64,000 bases of DNA from Archangium violaceum (lineage in GTDB: Bacteria; Myxococcota; Myxococcia; Myxococcales; Myxococcaceae): positions 5,500,001 through 5,564,000 of the forward strand of contig NZ_CP069396.1 of the NCBI RefSeq assembly GCF_016887565.1, written 5' to 3'. The position numbers and the translations under genes were made by a program. This document shows, one piece after another, positions 4,385 through 13,171 of this stretch. Position 1 is the stretch's first letter; every line of letters starts with the position of its first letter. The notes under the pieces were generated by a model, which worked only from the letters and a program-made list of their open reading frames with translations, ran no database searches and was not told the DNA's origin.

Positions 4385-4395
4385 CGAGGACATCC

Positions 4396-6690
4396 ATGAG
4401 CAAGAAGCCCATGTTGATTGCCCGGCGGACATTCCTCGCCGGGATGAACGTCTCCGCCGGTGGGCTCGCCCTGGCCTTCTTCACCGGTCAGAAGCCCACC
4501 AGCGAGCCCACGGGCCAACCGGGGCCGAAGCCCAGGACGAGCTCCCAGGCCGAGGAGAACGCCTCGCCCGGGCTCAACCCCAACGTCTTCGTGCACGTGG
4601 CTGCCGACGGGCTGGTGACGATCGTCTGCCACCGCTCGGAGATGGGGCAGGGCATCCGCAGCTCGCTCCCGGTGCTGATCGCCGATGAGCTGGGCGCGGA
4701 CATGGCCCGGGTGAAGATCGTCCAGGCCGATGGCGACCCGGTCTACGGCGATCAGAACACCGACGGCTCCAACAGCGTTCGCAGCATCTATGAGGAGATG
4801 CGGCGGGTGGGTGCCACCGCGCGCGTGATGCTGATCTCCGCCGCGGCCAGGCGCTGGAAGGTGGCGCCGGAGCAGTGCGAGGCGCGCGATCATGTCGTGA
4901 TTCATCGCGCGAGCAATCGCACGCTCGGCTTCGGCGAGCTGGCGCTCGAGGCGGGCAAGCTGCCCGTCCCCAAGCCGGCGGCGGTCGTGCTCCGGCCCAA
5001 GGCCGAGCTCCGGCGCGCCGGTGGGCCGCTGCCGTTGCTGGACGGGCCCGCGTACGTCAACGGGAGCGCCACGTTCGGGGCCGACATCCGGCTTCCGGGC
5101 ATGCTCATCGCGGTGATCGCGCGTCCCCCTGTCGTGGGAGGCCGGGTGGTGAAGTACGACGCCTCCCGTGCGCTCGCCATCCCCGGGGTGAAGCGCGTCA
5201 TCGAGCTTCCCGCGCCGAAGCCTCCGTACATGTTCCAGTCCTGGGGTGGCATCGCCGTCCTCGCGGAGAACACCTGGGCGGCCATGCGTGGCCGCGCGGC
5301 GCTGGACATCACCTGGGATCATGGGGACAACGCGAAGTACGACTCGGAGCGGTTCCGCCAGGAGCTCACCGCGTCCGTGCGAGCGCCCGGCATGCCCGTC
5401 CGCAACGTCGGAGACGCGGACGCCGCCCTCGCCAAGGCCGCGCGCTTGATCGAGGCGGAGTATCACGTGCCTCACCTCCCGCACGTGTCGATGGAGCCGC
5501 CCGTCGCGCTCGCTCGCGTCCAGGATGGCACCTGCGAGGTATGGGCCCCCACCCAGAATCCGCAGGCGGCTCGCACCGAGGCGGCCCGGGCGCTCGGGCT
5601 TCCTCCGGAGAAGGTCCAGGTCCACGTGACCTTCCTGGGCGGTGGTTTCGGGCGCAAGTCGAAGGCGGACTTCGTCTCCGAGGTCGTGCTGCTCGCCAGG
5701 GAGGCCGGTACTCCGGTGCGCGTGCAGTGGACGCGCGAGGACGACGTCCAGCACGACTACTACAACACCGTCAGCACCCAGCTGCTGAGCGCGGGGCTCG
5801 ACGAGCGCGGTAAGGTCGTCGCCTGGCGGCACCGCACCGCGTTCCCACCCATCGGCTCCACCTTCGCGCCGGTCAACCGGCCCGGGGAAGGGGACCTCCA
5901 GCAGGGGGTGCTGGATCTCGCGCTCGCGGTTCCCAACGTCCGCGCCGAGGCGTGCGAGGCCAATGCCCACGTCCGCATCGGCTGGCTCCGGTCCGTCTAC
6001 AACATCTTCCACGCCTTCTCGGTCAACTCCTTCATCGATGAGATCGCCCACGCCCGGGGTGAGGACACCCGCGATGTGCTGCTGGAGGTGCTCGGGCCTC
6101 CCCGGCTGTCCTCACTGGAGGAACTGGGGATCAAGAACCTCAGGAACTATGGCGCCTCGCTCGATGCCCACCCTGTCAATGTCGGGCGCCTGCGCCATGT
6201 CATCGAGCGCGTGACGCAGCTGTCGCGGTGGAGCGAGCGGAAGAAGGAGGGCAGGGCCCTGGGCCTCGCCGCCCACCGCAGCTTCGTCAGCTACACGGCG
6301 GTGGTCGCATCGGTCGTGCGCGACGCCGCCGGCAAGATCCGGGTCGATGAAGCCTGGATCGTCGCGGACGCGGGGACGGTGATCAATCCGGACCGTGTCC
6401 GGGCCCAGATGGAGGGCTCGGTCATCTTTGGAATGAGTCTGGCGCTGTACGGTGGCGTCACGATGAAGGGCGGCATGACGGAGCAGTCGAACTTCCGCGA
6501 CGTCCGGTTGGTGCGCATCGCGGAGGTGCCGCGGAAGATCCACGTGGAGATCATCCAGAGCGACGCGGCTCCGGGCGGGGTGGGGGAGCCCGGTGTTCCT
6601 CCCGTCGCTCCGGCGATCGCCAACGCGGTCTTCGCGCTCACGGGCACGCGCGTCCGGGAGCTTCCGATCTCGAAAGCGCTCCAGGTCTGA
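4396..6690 (+). CDS. iorB: Molybdopterin-binding large subunit, IorB-type, Tat-exported
   Basis: The 764-residue product starts at ATG 4396 (GAGGA 8 nt upstream); ATG 4381 in the same frame overlaps the iorA stop and is an alternative. The N-terminus has a twin-arginine motif, RRTFLAG, followed by a hydrophobic stretch, so the folded holoenzyme is probably exported. The body has the xanthine dehydrogenase family molybdopterin-binding architecture in the IorB arrangement: SEMGQG near residue 80, GGGFGRKSK near 415, and GGVGEPGVPP with Glu731 as the candidate catalytic base. With the cytochrome and IorA it forms a complete periplasmic oxidoreductase. Substrate is unknown. Confidence 0.87.
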   Translation: MSKKPMLIARRTFLAGMNVSAGGLALAFFTGQKPTSEPTGQPGPKPRTSSQAEENASPGLNPNVFVHVAADGLVTIVCHRSEMGQGIRSSLPVLIADELGADMARVKIVQADGDPVYGDQNTDGSNSVRSIYEEMRRVGATARVMLISAAARRWKVAPEQCEARDHVVIHRASNRTLGFGELALEAGKLPVPKPAAVVLRPKAELRRAGGPLPLLDGPAYVNGSATFGADIRLPGMLIAVIARPPVVGGRVVKYDASRALAIPGVKRVIELPAPKPPYMFQSWGGIAVLAENTWAAMRGRAALDITWDHGDNAKYDSERFRQELTASVRAPGMPVRNVGDADAALAKAARLIEAEYHVPHLPHVSMEPPVALARVQDGTCEVWAPTQNPQAARTEAARALGLPPEKVQVHVTFLGGGFGRKSKADFVSEVVLLAREAGTPVRVQWTREDDVQHDYYNTVSTQLLSAGLDERGKVVAWRHRTAFPPIGSTFAPVNRPGEGDLQQGVLDLALAVPNVRAEACEANAHVRIGWLRSVYNIFHAFSVNSFIDEIAHARGEDTRDVLLEVLGPPRLSSLEELGIKNLRNYGASLDAHPVNVGRLRHVIERVTQLSRWSERKKEGRALGLAAHRSFVSYTAVVASVVRDAAGKIRVDEAWIVADAGTVINPDRVRAQMEGSVIFGMSLALYGGVTMKGGMTEQSNFRDVRLVRIAEVPRKIHVEIIQSDAAPGGVGEPGVPPVAPAIANAVFALTGTRVRELPISKALQV

Positions 6691-8580: not shown

Positions 8581-9552
8581 ATGGAGACTGTCTTGAAGAG
8601 GCTTCACGAGGTCCGGACCCTTCTCCTCATCCTCCTCGCGTTGTGTGGGCCTGGCTGTGGCTCATCCTCTACGCCTCCGGACGACACCGAGGACACCACG
8701 AGCTCCGAGCTCGCCTACGAACCCTGCGACGCGAGCCAACGGGTCGGACAATTCACCGTCGAGCTGGGGGATGGGTACACGTCCGTCCAGGGCCGCGTCC
8801 TCAACGGTGTCGTTCCGGCCAACGTGCGGCAGGTGCAAGCCCAGGAGGGTGAGTGCCGTCTCCTGCGTGGACGCACGCTCTTCTGTGAGCCGACCTGTGG
8901 CGCCTCGCAGACGTGTGGAGAAGGCGGCGTCTGCATTCCCTATCCGACCGCGCAGAACGTGGGCACCGTGCGCGTGCTGGGATTGAAGGCCGAGCTCTCC
9001 ATGTCACCGAACTCGGCGAGGTTCTATTTCAACGGCGGGACCTCGCTGCCGTACCCTGGCTTCGACGAGGGCGCCAACATCAAGCTCGAGGGCAGTGGCG
9101 CGGACGTCCAGGCCTTCTCGCTTCGAGGGCAGGGCATCTCTCGTCTCACCGTCCCCGAGGGGGCCATCACCGTCGAGCGGGGAAGCCCGGTGACCGTGTC
9201 GTGGACGCCTCCCACCACTCCCGGAGCGGCACGCATCCAGATCGTCATGGATCTCGCGCACCACGGCGGCATTGCCGCCTCGCTCGAGTGCGATGGTGTC
9301 CCTGACACGGGCAGCTATGTCATCCCCGCCGGGTTGAGCTCGCAGTTGCTCGACGTGGGCGTCGCCGGCTTTCCCAAGATCACCATCAGCCGCCGTACGG
9401 CGGACTCCGCGGACACGAGCGCCGGGTGCGTGGACCTGATGGTGCTGTCCCAGGTGGAGCGCGAGCTCCTCATTCCCGGACTGGTGTCGTGCAGCGGTGA
9501 CGAGGACTGCCCGGCGGGACAGACCTGCCAGGCGGACCTGACGTGCAAGTGA
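8581..9552 (+). CDS. Secreted lipoprotein of unknown function, first of a four-lipoprotein operon
   Basis: The 323-residue product starts at ATG 8581. A signal peptide (LLLILLALCGPGC) ends at a candidate lipid Cys. The mature protein contains Cys clusters CRLLRGRTLFCEPTCG and CGEGGVC, a beta-rich central region, and a terminal DEDCPAGQTCQADLTC motif. That last motif is the short Cys-knot tag common in myxobacterial surface lipoproteins. It is followed at 15 nt by the next lipoprotein gene. No enzyme family was recognised. Confidence 0.75.
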   Translation: METVLKRLHEVRTLLLILLALCGPGCGSSSTPPDDTEDTTSSELAYEPCDASQRVGQFTVELGDGYTSVQGRVLNGVVPANVRQVQAQEGECRLLRGRTLFCEPTCGASQTCGEGGVCIPYPTAQNVGTVRVLGLKAELSMSPNSARFYFNGGTSLPYPGFDEGANIKLEGSGADVQAFSLRGQGISRLTVPEGAITVERGSPVTVSWTPPTTPGAARIQIVMDLAHHGGIAASLECDGVPDTGSYVIPAGLSSQLLDVGVAGFPKITISRRTADSADTSAGCVDLMVLSQVERELLIPGLVSCSGDEDCPAGQTCQADLTCK

Positions 9553-9567: not shown

Positions 9568-10407
9568 ATGAGAAACACATTCGTCATTCCCGCGGTGACC
9601 CTGCTTGCTCTCGGCGTCTGCGCTACCGCCTGCGGTTCGGACCCCATTGATACGGATCAGGACCAGGGTGATGGTTCCACGGGTGGAGACACCACGGATG
9701 GTGGTGGCACCACGGGTGGTTCGGCGGATGAGACGAAGTTCAGTTTCTTCGTCACCAGCATCGAGGCCATGCGCCAGCTCTCGGGCAGCTCGAACGGCTT
9801 CGGCGGAGATCTGCGTTTCGGTGAGGCCACGGGGTTGGAGGGTGCGGACAAGATCTGCCGGACCATCGCCGAGATGGGTCTTCCCGGCTCCGGGCAGAAG
9901 GTCTGGCGCGCCTTCTTGAGTGCCTCGACCGGTGGTGCCGACGGCGGCACCGTCCACGCCATCGATCGCATTGGCGAGGGCCCCTGGTACGACCGCAATG
10001 GTCGGCTCGTGGCCTCGAACAAGGCCGGGCTCTTGAGTGCGCGTCCGAAAGGCGATGCGCAAATCGTGAACGATCTGCCCAACGAGCGGGGCGAGCCCAA
10101 CCACCAGGGCGTCGACAACCACGACACCCTGACGGGCTCGAACAAACAGGGGCAGTACGCGGGCAGCAAGTCCTATACCTGCAACGACTGGACGAGCGCG
10201 GTCGGCTCCACCGGGAAGCCGTACATCGGTCACTCCTGGCCTCGTAGCGCCAGCAATCCCACGAACGGCGGCAACTGGATCTCCGATCACCAGGCGCCGG
10301 GCTGCGCCGCCGGCGTCAACCTCTCCCAGAACGGCCCGGGTGGTGGGTCCTCCGTGGGCGGAGGCGGCGGGTACGGTGGCCTCTACTGCTTCGCGATCAA
10401 TCCCTGA
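9568..10407 (+). CDS. Lipoprotein with C-type-lectin-like/DUF1554-like domain
   Basis: The 279-residue product has a signal peptide with a TACGS lipobox, then a Gly/Thr/Asp-rich linker to about residue 50. The globular part has the pattern GLEGADKICRTIAEMG, VWRAFLS, then SYTCNDWTSAVG and a terminal LYCFAINP. This GADxIC, CNxWTS and LYCF arrangement resembles bacterial lectin-like secreted domains (DUF1554 type); the assignment is by pattern only. A Gly-rich run (GGGSSVGGGGGYGG) precedes the last strand. It is second in the operon, 15 nt after the preceding gene and 20 nt before the dikinase-like gene. Confidence 0.7.
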   Translation: MRNTFVIPAVTLLALGVCATACGSDPIDTDQDQGDGSTGGDTTDGGGTTGGSADETKFSFFVTSIEAMRQLSGSSNGFGGDLRFGEATGLEGADKICRTIAEMGLPGSGQKVWRAFLSASTGGADGGTVHAIDRIGEGPWYDRNGRLVASNKAGLLSARPKGDAQIVNDLPNERGEPNHQGVDNHDTLTGSNKQGQYAGSKSYTCNDWTSAVGSTGKPYIGHSWPRSASNPTNGGNWISDHQAPGCAAGVNLSQNGPGGGSSVGGGGGYGGLYCFAINP

Positions 10408-10427: not shown

Positions 10428-12446
10428 TTGCGCTCCCATCTCTTCGTCGTCATCACCGCGCTCCTTCTCGCGTGTTCTTCGGACTCCTCGTCCACCCCTG
10501 ACGTGGTGCAGGAGGGGACCTGCGAAGTGACCGACGAGAGCTCGAGCCCCAGCTTCCTGGCGCGCATCGGGTGCCAGAAAGACTTCAACGCCCTCGCCTC
10601 CGAGCCGCTCGACACCAGCATCCCGGGCGCCCGCTCCGTGAAGGTCGTGCTCGATCGGTTCGACAACGACACCCTCTACTTCCAGAACAGCACCCGCTAC
10701 GCCATCCATTACGAGTTCGTCTCCGCCAATCTTTCCGGTGGGGGACGGCCCATCGTCGGCTCGCTGGCGGACTTCAACCAGACGGAATACTACTCACCGG
10801 ATCGCCGCTTCCTGCTCGGGTCCGTCACGTATTACGAAGGACCCGACGTCTGGGCGCTCGAGATCGCGCCCTATGACTCCGCCTCCGCCTCGATGGTGAC
10901 CCGTCTCTACGAGGCCGTCCGCGACGCGGGCTACTTCGGTCCCGCGCTGTTCTTCCACCCCACCTCCCAGGCGGTCGAGGCCGAGGCGAAGAATCTGCCC
11001 ACCTCCGTCCGCGTGAAGACGACGGCCGAGCTCTTCGCCGCCATCGACTATCAACCCCTCAACCTCGCCACCTCGGTCGGGCGGCTGCGTTTCATCAAGG
11101 CCGCCGACCTGGCGACGACCTACCTCTCCTACCGCGACATCGTCGTGCTGGACCGCATCCCCAATGACATCTCGGTGGTGCTCGGCATCATCACCGAGGA
11201 GTTCCAGACTCCGCTCTCGCACGTCAACGTGCTCTCCCAGAATCGCAAGACCCCGAACATGGGATTGCGCGACGCCACGACGAACTCCCAGCTCCGGGCG
11301 CTCGAAGGGAAGTGGGTCCGTCTCACCGTGGGCGCCTTCGATTGGAGCGTCGAGGAGGTGACGAGCACGGAGGCCGACGCCTATTGGGAAGCGCACAAGC
11401 CCGTGCCCGTGCAACTGCCCGCGGCCGACCTGACGGTCACGGACCTGCGCGATCTCGAGCAGGTCGTGGTCGAGGGCTCGGGTTCCCTCCGGGACGCCAT
11501 CAAGGCCGCCATCCCCGCGTTCGGTGGGAAGGCCGCTCACTACTCCGTCATGGTCAACACGCCGGGGCTCCCCATCCGCAAGGCTTTCACCATCCCGGCC
11601 TACTACTACGTCCAGTTCATGGAGGAGAACGGGTTCTACGCCAGGATGGATCAGCTGCTGGCGGATCCCGAGTTCCAGGCGAAGCCCGAGGTGCGTGACG
11701 CGCGTCTGAAGGAGTTCCGCAAGGCCATGGAGGCGGCGCCCGTGAATGCCACCTTCCAATCCATGCTCAAGGCCAAGCTGGCCACGGACTACCCGGGACT
11801 GACCATGCGCTTCCGCACCAGCACGAACAGCGAGGACCTGGAAGGGTTTCCGTGCGCGGGTTGCTACGAGTCACACACCGGAGATCCCAGCGATTGGGAG
11901 GATGTGCTCGATGCCATTCGCGAGACCTGGGCCAGCATCTGGTTGTTCCGCACCTTCGAGGAGCGCGCCTACAACGGCATCGATCACAAGGCAGTCGTGA
12001 TGGCCCTGCTGGTGCACCACAACTTCCCGGACGAGGAAGCCAATGGAGTGGCGCTCACGGCGAATCCATTCGACCCGTCGGGCCTGCAGCCGGGGCTCTA
12101 CGTGAACGTGCAGGCGGGAGGGGACGCCGAGGTGGTCCACCCCCCACCGGGAATCACCAGCGACCAGTTCATCTATGAGTTCCACCAGCCAGGACTCCCC
12201 ATCACGTACCTGTCCCACTCCAACCTGGTGGCCGAGGGCGAGACGGTGCTGACGCCCGCCCAGGTCTTCGAGCTCGGTCAGGCGCTCGACAGGATTCACG
12301 AGCGTTTCTCGCCGGCCTATGGACCGAAGGCGGGCAACACCGGCTGGTACGCCATGGATGTCGAGTTCAAGTTCGACGGTGAGCCCGGCCAGACGCCGAC
12401 ATTGACGGTCAAGCAGGCTCGCCCGCACCCGGGTCGAGGCCAATGA
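10428..12446 (+). CDS. Extracytoplasmic phosphohistidine/PEP-synthase-like ATP-grasp lipoprotein
   Basis: The start is TTG 10428, with GAGGA 8 nt upstream and a signal peptide ending LLLACSS directly after. The 672-residue product has a phosphohistidine swivel-like segment, TPLSHVNVLSQNRKTP with candidate His265. This is followed by a complete PEP synthase/PPDK N-terminal ATP-grasp region: FGGKAAHY near 364, FRTSTNSEDLEG with Arg463, GVALTANPF near 540, and KQARP at the C-terminus. The His-then-ATP-grasp order is the reverse of PEP synthase and matches alpha-glucan water dikinases. Export to a compartment without ATP is puzzling, so binding or a non-ATP donor must be considered. Confidence 0.75.
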   Translation: MRSHLFVVITALLLACSSDSSSTPDVVQEGTCEVTDESSSPSFLARIGCQKDFNALASEPLDTSIPGARSVKVVLDRFDNDTLYFQNSTRYAIHYEFVSANLSGGGRPIVGSLADFNQTEYYSPDRRFLLGSVTYYEGPDVWALEIAPYDSASASMVTRLYEAVRDAGYFGPALFFHPTSQAVEAEAKNLPTSVRVKTTAELFAAIDYQPLNLATSVGRLRFIKAADLATTYLSYRDIVVLDRIPNDISVVLGIITEEFQTPLSHVNVLSQNRKTPNMGLRDATTNSQLRALEGKWVRLTVGAFDWSVEEVTSTEADAYWEAHKPVPVQLPAADLTVTDLRDLEQVVVEGSGSLRDAIKAAIPAFGGKAAHYSVMVNTPGLPIRKAFTIPAYYYVQFMEENGFYARMDQLLADPEFQAKPEVRDARLKEFRKAMEAAPVNATFQSMLKAKLATDYPGLTMRFRTSTNSEDLEGFPCAGCYESHTGDPSDWEDVLDAIRETWASIWLFRTFEERAYNGIDHKAVVMALLVHHNFPDEEANGVALTANPFDPSGLQPGLYVNVQAGGDAEVVHPPPGITSDQFIYEFHQPGLPITYLSHSNLVAEGETVLTPAQVFELGQALDRIHERFSPAYGPKAGNTGWYAMDVEFKFDGEPGQTPTLTVKQARPHPGRGQ

Positions 12447-12472
12447 GCAGCTCCGCGAGGAAGGACACGACG

Positions 12473-13171
12473 ATGCGTACCTCTCACTTGTTCCAGGTGC
12501 TGCTCCTGGCCGGCTCCCTGGCCACGGGATGCGGCGGGACCTCTTCCACTCCTCCTCCCGACAGCGTGGACGGCAGCGGCACGGTCGGCTCCAACCCGCT
12601 GCTGCCGTGGAAGGCGGGAAACCGCTGGACCTACCGGGTCACCGAGGACGGAGAGGTCTCCGAGAAGGTGACCACGGTCGGTGAGCCAGAGCCCGTGGGT
12701 GGCACGGGACCCCACCGGGACGTCCTCGCGAACAAGGTGACCACGTTGAAGAGCTCGGGTGCCAGGACCCTCAGCTGGCAGGCCTATTCGGGCGCGCGCC
12801 TCGTTCGCTACCGCGAGCAGTCGCTCCGCGCGAACACGGACACCGTCAAGAGCGAGGAGCTCTGGGATCCCCCCAGGCTTCACATCGACGAGTCGCCCGA
12901 GCACGCCGTGGTGGGCGCCTCCTGGCTCGAGAGCTACGAGGAGACGGCGCTCTCCGCTGGTGAGAATTCGAGCACGACCGTCCGGGAGCGTTGGACGGTG
13001 ATCGCCGATGGAGAGTCCGTCACCGTCCCCGCCGGCACGTTCCAGGCGCTCGTCCTGCAGAAGGCGGGCGGCAGTACGGCCAAGACCTACTGGTTCGTTC
13101 GGGGCATTGGAAAGGTGAAGGAGGAGGGCGGGCAGACCGAGGAGCTGGTCAGCTATGAGCTCCAACCGTAG
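12473..13171 (+). CDS. Lipoprotein of unknown function, last of four-lipoprotein operon
   Basis: The 232-residue product starts at ATG 12473, where GAGGAAGG lies 8 nt upstream and the signal peptide begins. An in-frame ATG at 12443 overlaps the previous stop but would precede the signal with polar residues. The lipobox is LATGC. The mature part opens with NPLLPWKAGNRWTYRV and is otherwise beta-rich, containing GTFQALVLQK and TYWFVRGIGKVKEE. This pattern occurs in DUF-type envelope lipoproteins of myxobacteria. No catalytic motif is visible. Confidence 0.72.
   Translation: MRTSHLFQVLLLAGSLATGCGGTSSTPPPDSVDGSGTVGSNPLLPWKAGNRWTYRVTEDGEVSEKVTTVGEPEPVGGTGPHRDVLANKVTTLKSSGARTLSWQAYSGARLVRYREQSLRANTDTVKSEELWDPPRLHIDESPEHAVVGASWLESYEETALSAGENSSTTVRERWTVIADGESVTVPAGTFQALVLQKAGGSTAKTYWFVRGIGKVKEEGGQTEELVSYELQP

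Follow-up and report, generated by a model that had tools for sequence, protein, structure and literature searches.

Plant GWD carries a phosphohistidine domain followed by a C-terminal ATP-grasp domain, and CotH is a kinase of the spore coat. To our knowledge, all PEPS/PPDK-type dikinases described so far are located in the cytoplasm or in an organelle stroma. Here we analyse a dikinase-like lipoprotein of 672 aa with a TTG start (10428..12446, + strand), recognized from its ORF translation, Pfam matches, orthologues and predicted fold, which is encoded in a window of 64,000 nucleotides, the whole stretch of DNA analysed, within a single contig of 13.2 Mb. The protein resembles plant GWD in placing the predicted phosphohistidine domain before a C-terminal ATP-grasp domain and in having a His loop of the SHVxV type. 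It differs from GWD, however, in having no starch-binding domains, in its predicted export as a lipoprotein and in its co-inherited lipoprotein partners. With PEP synthase and PPDK it shares a PPDK_N ATP-grasp domain with all nucleotide residues, whereas its predicted export and the position of its His domain (before the ATP-grasp domain, not after it) set it apart. A C-terminal PEP/pyruvate-binding barrel was not matched by Pfam in the dikinase-like protein, and the ATP-grasp domain ends at residue 667 of 672.

The antibiotic kinase RPH-Lm (5hv1/5hv6; PMC4844700) has in common with this protein the ATP-grasp fold (TM 0.74 normalised by 5hv6) and a mobile phosphohistidine domain combined with a separate acceptor domain, both being putative in the dikinase-like protein. 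Each substitution of Lys22, Arg117 and Thr136 of RPH-Lm abolishes rifampin resistance, no activity was observed when Lys22 was changed, and the ATP pyrophosphatase partial reaction persists in RPH mutants (PMC4844700). Equivalents of these three residues are kept in the dikinase-like protein, and by alignment to RPH-Lm (residue offset derived by hand) they are K368, R463 and S482, respectively. In contrast, the order in RPH is ATP-grasp, acceptor and C-terminal His, there is no lipoprotein signal, and the acceptor domain is unrelated. Taken together, we estimate a probability of about 0.55 that the protein is an exported, catalytically competent swivelling dikinase of the PEPS/PPDK/RPH superfamily, whose catalysis would use a phosphate donor to phosphorylate an acceptor in the envelope.

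Start site and export signal

A ribosome-binding site, GAGGA, lies about 8 nt upstream of the TTG start, and the N-terminus of the product reads as a lipoprotein signal, MRSHLFVVITALLLAC followed by SSDSS. The signal peptide and lipobox (LLAC, Cys16) occupy 10428..10475 on the + strand, and a signal peptide with a lipobox Cys, as is required of bacterial lipoproteins, was found in 54 of the 56 orthologues. The two exceptions are L067, in which the N-terminus is lost at a contig end, and L079, which is without a clear signal. The dikinase-like protein is accordingly predicted to be an exported lipoprotein.

Phosphohistidine loop and ATP-grasp domain

The His loop, TPLSHVNVLSQN (residues 261-272, containing His265), comes first and is followed by the ATP-grasp motifs of the PEPS/PPDK/RPH type, namely GGK (K368), MRFRTSTNSEDL (R463) and DVEFKF...TVKQARP (E646, Q663 and R665). 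The latter belong to a PPDK_N domain (residues 364-667; 11517..12428, + strand), which also includes R423 and S482 and which scored 78.6 bits (E=6.7e-22) against a curated Pfam cut-off of 27. This family was matched by all 54 aligned members, matches to PDB sequence profiles reached 1.5e-27, its profile and fold matches in the PDB are to PEPS, RPH and PPDK, and the C-terminal E/Q/R motif aligns to PEP synthase. The loop itself lies in a predicted phosphohistidine-type swivel domain (about residues 207-315; 11046..11372, + strand), assigned from homologue matches and from a GWD1_pHisD match over residues 251-315 that is sub-threshold (20.2 bits vs a Pfam cut-off of 27). Across 54 homologues, the swivel region gave weak matches to GWD1_pHisD (19) and PEP-utilizers (7), the window protein itself being sub-threshold.

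Residue conservation was assessed in 56 sequences at no less than 47% identity (window protein included) and nine distant homologues, which come nearly throughout from Myxococcota genomes, with one Phycisphaerae bin. None of the 56 close and nine distant homologues departs from H265, K368, R423, R463, E646, Q663 or R665, and all of them carry Ser or Thr at position 482. With PPDK_N above its cut-off and the Lys/Arg/Glu/Gln/Arg set of the nucleotide site invariant, the protein is a probable member of the PEPS/PPDK/RPH superfamily. The observed features are not due to chance, as is shown by the E-value of PPDK_N (6.7e-22), the invariance of the residues in the 56 and nine homologues and the lipobox in 54/56. 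The initial annotation, made from the DNA letters, had read a phosphohistidine-type loop, a PEP-synthase-type ATP-grasp domain behind it and a lipoprotein signal; all three were borne out, and His265 and Arg463, the residues on whose conservation it had staked its reading, proved to be conserved without exception. As judged from the alignments, this conservation shows a constraint on the nucleotide site and is not a proof of turnover.

The same annotation had offered a binding fold as an alternative; the ATP-grasp and swivel domains would then be a structural or ligand-binding (e.g. nucleotide-sensing) module in a surface lipoprotein complex. Such a module would suit the extracytoplasmic location, the absence of an acceptor domain of known type and the presence of a CxxC in place of two ATP-grasp loop positions in 45/56 orthologues. 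However, a dead fold is not expected to retain the full catalytic set, H265 included, even at 27-36% identity, and since this set is strictly conserved, we consider a mere binding fold unlikely. The CxxC (C476-A-G-C479, window 11853-11864) lies within an ATP-grasp loop and is replaced by G..L in the remaining orthologues; it is a possible disulfide in the exported protein.

Predicted fold and N-terminal domain

The AlphaFold model of the dikinase-like protein has a pLDDT of 87.9 (54-row alignment), and a Foldseek search of the PDB with the whole model matched RPH, HpeI, PEPS and PPDK. The best fold matches were the ATP-grasp domain of RPH, PEPS and PPDK. Structure prediction, the check that had been proposed at the outset, thus returned an ATP-grasp fold like those of RPH, PEPS and PPDK and not a fold devoid of an ATP-grasp pocket. 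A Foldseek match to pyruvate kinase over 114 columns may correspond to the phosphohistidine-like part.

The N-terminal domain (residues 28-206; 10509..11045, + strand) is confidently predicted, with a pLDDT of 93.9 when folded alone. K72, H94, Y121 and D150 are exceptionless in close and distant members wherever letters exist, and C32 and C49 are retained in nearly all close members. The domain had no significant match among PDB folds (best E=0.26), BFVD viral folds, Pfam families or PDB sequence profiles; a low-ranked match to polyphosphate kinase 1 (E=0.53) was rejected as noise. We propose that it may serve as the acceptor-binding domain.

A cassette of three lipoproteins

Beyond the features in the initial annotation, the dikinase gene was found to have co-inherited partner lipoproteins and, in relatives, a recurrent neighbourhood of CotH, VTC and DUF4956. 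Partner lipoprotein 1 (up2; 8581..9552, + strand; 323 aa), identified by alignment and synteny, is cysteine-rich, has conserved W208, H228-G229, C237 and D242, and matched no Pfam family; its orthologue adjoins the dikinase gene in most loci. Partner lipoprotein 2 (9568..10407, + strand; 279 aa), identified by the DUF1554 profile and by orthologues, has a DUF1554-like domain behind a Gly/Ser/Thr-rich linker. DUF1554 was matched by 32/32 aligned members, with the window protein itself sub-threshold, and a faint endostatin match was seen in two of the 32. For neither partner were sequence relatives found in the PDB. Among the papers found, none was relevant to DUF1554 lectins, and none describes the cassette or an exported dikinase, those on CotH/VTC/DUF4956 clusters included.

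The close dikinase, strong DUF1554-like matches and partner 1 show identical presence, in 19 of the 142 genomes of the class. Because the cassette is patchy within genera (three of six same-genus genomes, this one included), shared ancestry alone is no easy explanation of the co-occurrence. The gene order varies among loci, with partners on either side of the dikinase gene or on the opposite strand. In genome G078 (L027, G078:C1:4966008-4967269), the dikinase is broken into three out-of-frame pieces and partner 1 is reduced to a fragment, an apparent joint decay of the cassette that would be expected if the dikinase and the partner system were lost together.

The gene immediately downstream (12443..13171, + strand) overlaps the dikinase stop by ATGA and encodes a lipoprotein of 242 aa with a weak DUF3108-like match. 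Its homologues are adjacent or nearby in some related loci, fewer than for the cassette partners, and it is an accessory member of the cassette. Upstream of the cassette, window 4390-6690 encodes an apparently unrelated molybdopterin-binding dehydrogenase subunit (MoCoBD_1/2).

CotH, VTC and DUF4956 beside the cassette in relatives

Pfam searches of the proteins beside the cassette in relatives recognized VTC (PF09359), DUF4956 (PF16316), CotH (PF08757) and LTD (PF00932, lamin-tail). By profile search, at least one of the four lies within 6 kb in 24 of the 28 full-length loci of relatives (VTC in 13, DUF4956 in 16, CotH in seven and LTD in 10). The seeds of these profiles came from loci of the set itself, and VTC and CotH were also sought genome-wide with Pfam models; the DUF4956 and LTD counts are therefore less independent than those of VTC and CotH. 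VTC is rare, with one to three copies per genome, and lies at most 8 kb from the dikinase in 8/20 genomes vs 0.06 expected (P about 6e-16 with genomes treated as independent, and about 3e-13 when genomes are roughly collapsed to genera). In the tree, the VTC/CotH-linked dikinase loci are spread across deep branches.

In one relative (G109), the order is dikinase, DUF1554-like protein, partner 1, DUF4956, thymidylate-kinase-like protein, porin (Porin_O_P, just under the cut-off), VTC and CotH. Profile searches for CotH, VTC and DUF4956 in the 64-kb window itself gave none. The same genome does have a separate block with DUF4956, a thymidylate-kinase-like protein, a Porin_O_P-like protein, VTC and CotH (L111, G000:C1:1988000-2003000). 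This block, at 1.99 Mb and 3.5 Mb from the cassette, is 58-67% identical to the cassette-contiguous block of G109 (L112). Although CotH/VTC/DUF4956 clusters are recurrent neighbours of the cassette, the CotH kinase family is unrelated to the dikinase; a CotH domain (PF08757) was not matched by Pfam in the dikinase-like protein, CotH being a neighbour in relatives only.

This neighbourhood bears on the idea of a true glucan or exopolysaccharide dikinase, which would phosphorylate an extracellular polysaccharide as GWD does starch and alter its solubility or charge, since the Pel exopolysaccharide operons of Gram-positives have CotH, polyphosphate polymerase and DUF4956 genes at their flanks (PMC7112168). 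The His loop PLSHVNV and the order of the domains are GWD-like, among Pfam families the His region matches GWD1_pHisD best, though below threshold, and the faint endostatin match of a DUF1554 partner points in the same direction. However, Pfam detected neither starch-binding nor other carbohydrate-binding domains, the GWD pHis model stays under its cut-off, and no polysaccharide synthesis gene was recognized among the recurrent neighbours, the annotation of which is partial; this idea, too, is improbable. The glucan-dikinase likeness noted initially therefore holds for the order of His loop and ATP-grasp domain and does not extend to membership of the GWD family, which is unsupported because a CBM45-type starch-binding domain is missing (Pfam gave PPDK_N and the sub-threshold GWD1_pHisD alone) and the pHis model reaches 20.2 instead of 27 bits.

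Proposed mechanism and significance

From the lipoprotein signal, the fold, the catalytic residues, the three-gene cassette and the CotH/VTC/DUF4956 linkage in relatives, all of which are computed observations, we infer the catalysis of the exported dikinase, its direction, acceptor, donor and membrane face. The ATP-grasp domain would bind a nucleotide polyphosphate and phosphorylate His265 on the swivel domain, which would then pass the phosphoryl group on to an acceptor bound by the N-terminal domain, by the two partner lipoproteins or by both. As acceptor, a surface protein or a glycan belonging to the envelope or matrix would be most likely. ATP is taken as the default donor, given the intact nucleotide site. 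The host myxobacteria are predatory bacteria, and lysed prey or sister cells are a possible source of the ATP; exported polyphosphate would be a second, speculative possibility. Free ATP is scarce outside the cytoplasm, which counts against the proposed dikinase, as do the unmatched N-terminal domain, the distance of 3.5 Mb to the CotH/VTC/DUF4956 block in its own genome and the sub-threshold score of the swivel domain by sequence.

The family is widespread in Myxococcota and keeps the whole catalytic set. It has a domain of its own, for whose predicted fold no match was found, and its two partner lipoproteins are co-inherited. The membrane-anchored dikinase and its partners suggest an extracytoplasmic phosphorylation system of an uncharacterised kind and, with genes for a polyphosphate polymerase, a DUF4956 membrane protein and a CotH kinase recurring next to theirs, surface phosphorylation without cytosolic ATP becomes directly testable. 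The yeast VTC complex both synthesizes polyphosphate and transfers it across the membrane (PMC9911596). It is conceivable, though very unlikely, that polyphosphate made by VTC and passed through the membrane with DUF4956 is the donor or energy source for the exported dikinase and the CotH kinase, which would modify envelope or matrix polymers; if true, this would explain the energy supply for phosphotransfer in a compartment poor in ATP. Another reading is that of a scavenger or sink which converts ATP released by lysed prey or sister cells into AMP and Pi, or which works in reverse; its acceptor would be water or phosphate, and no polymer would be modified. This would agree with the pyrophosphatase partial reaction of the superfamily and with predatory hosts, but is very unlikely, as the co-inherited partners and the separate N-terminal domain, which is conserved, point to a dedicated acceptor.

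Distant homologues

The distant homologues L028, L029, L030 and L032-L038 are 27-36% identical to the dikinase-like protein, and some of their reading frames extend to 900-1080 aa. They have the same layout of N-terminal domain, His loop and ATP-grasp domain. Their N-termini are lipoprotein-like in L030 and L038, signal-like in L032, and long and Ala/Pro-rich in the others.
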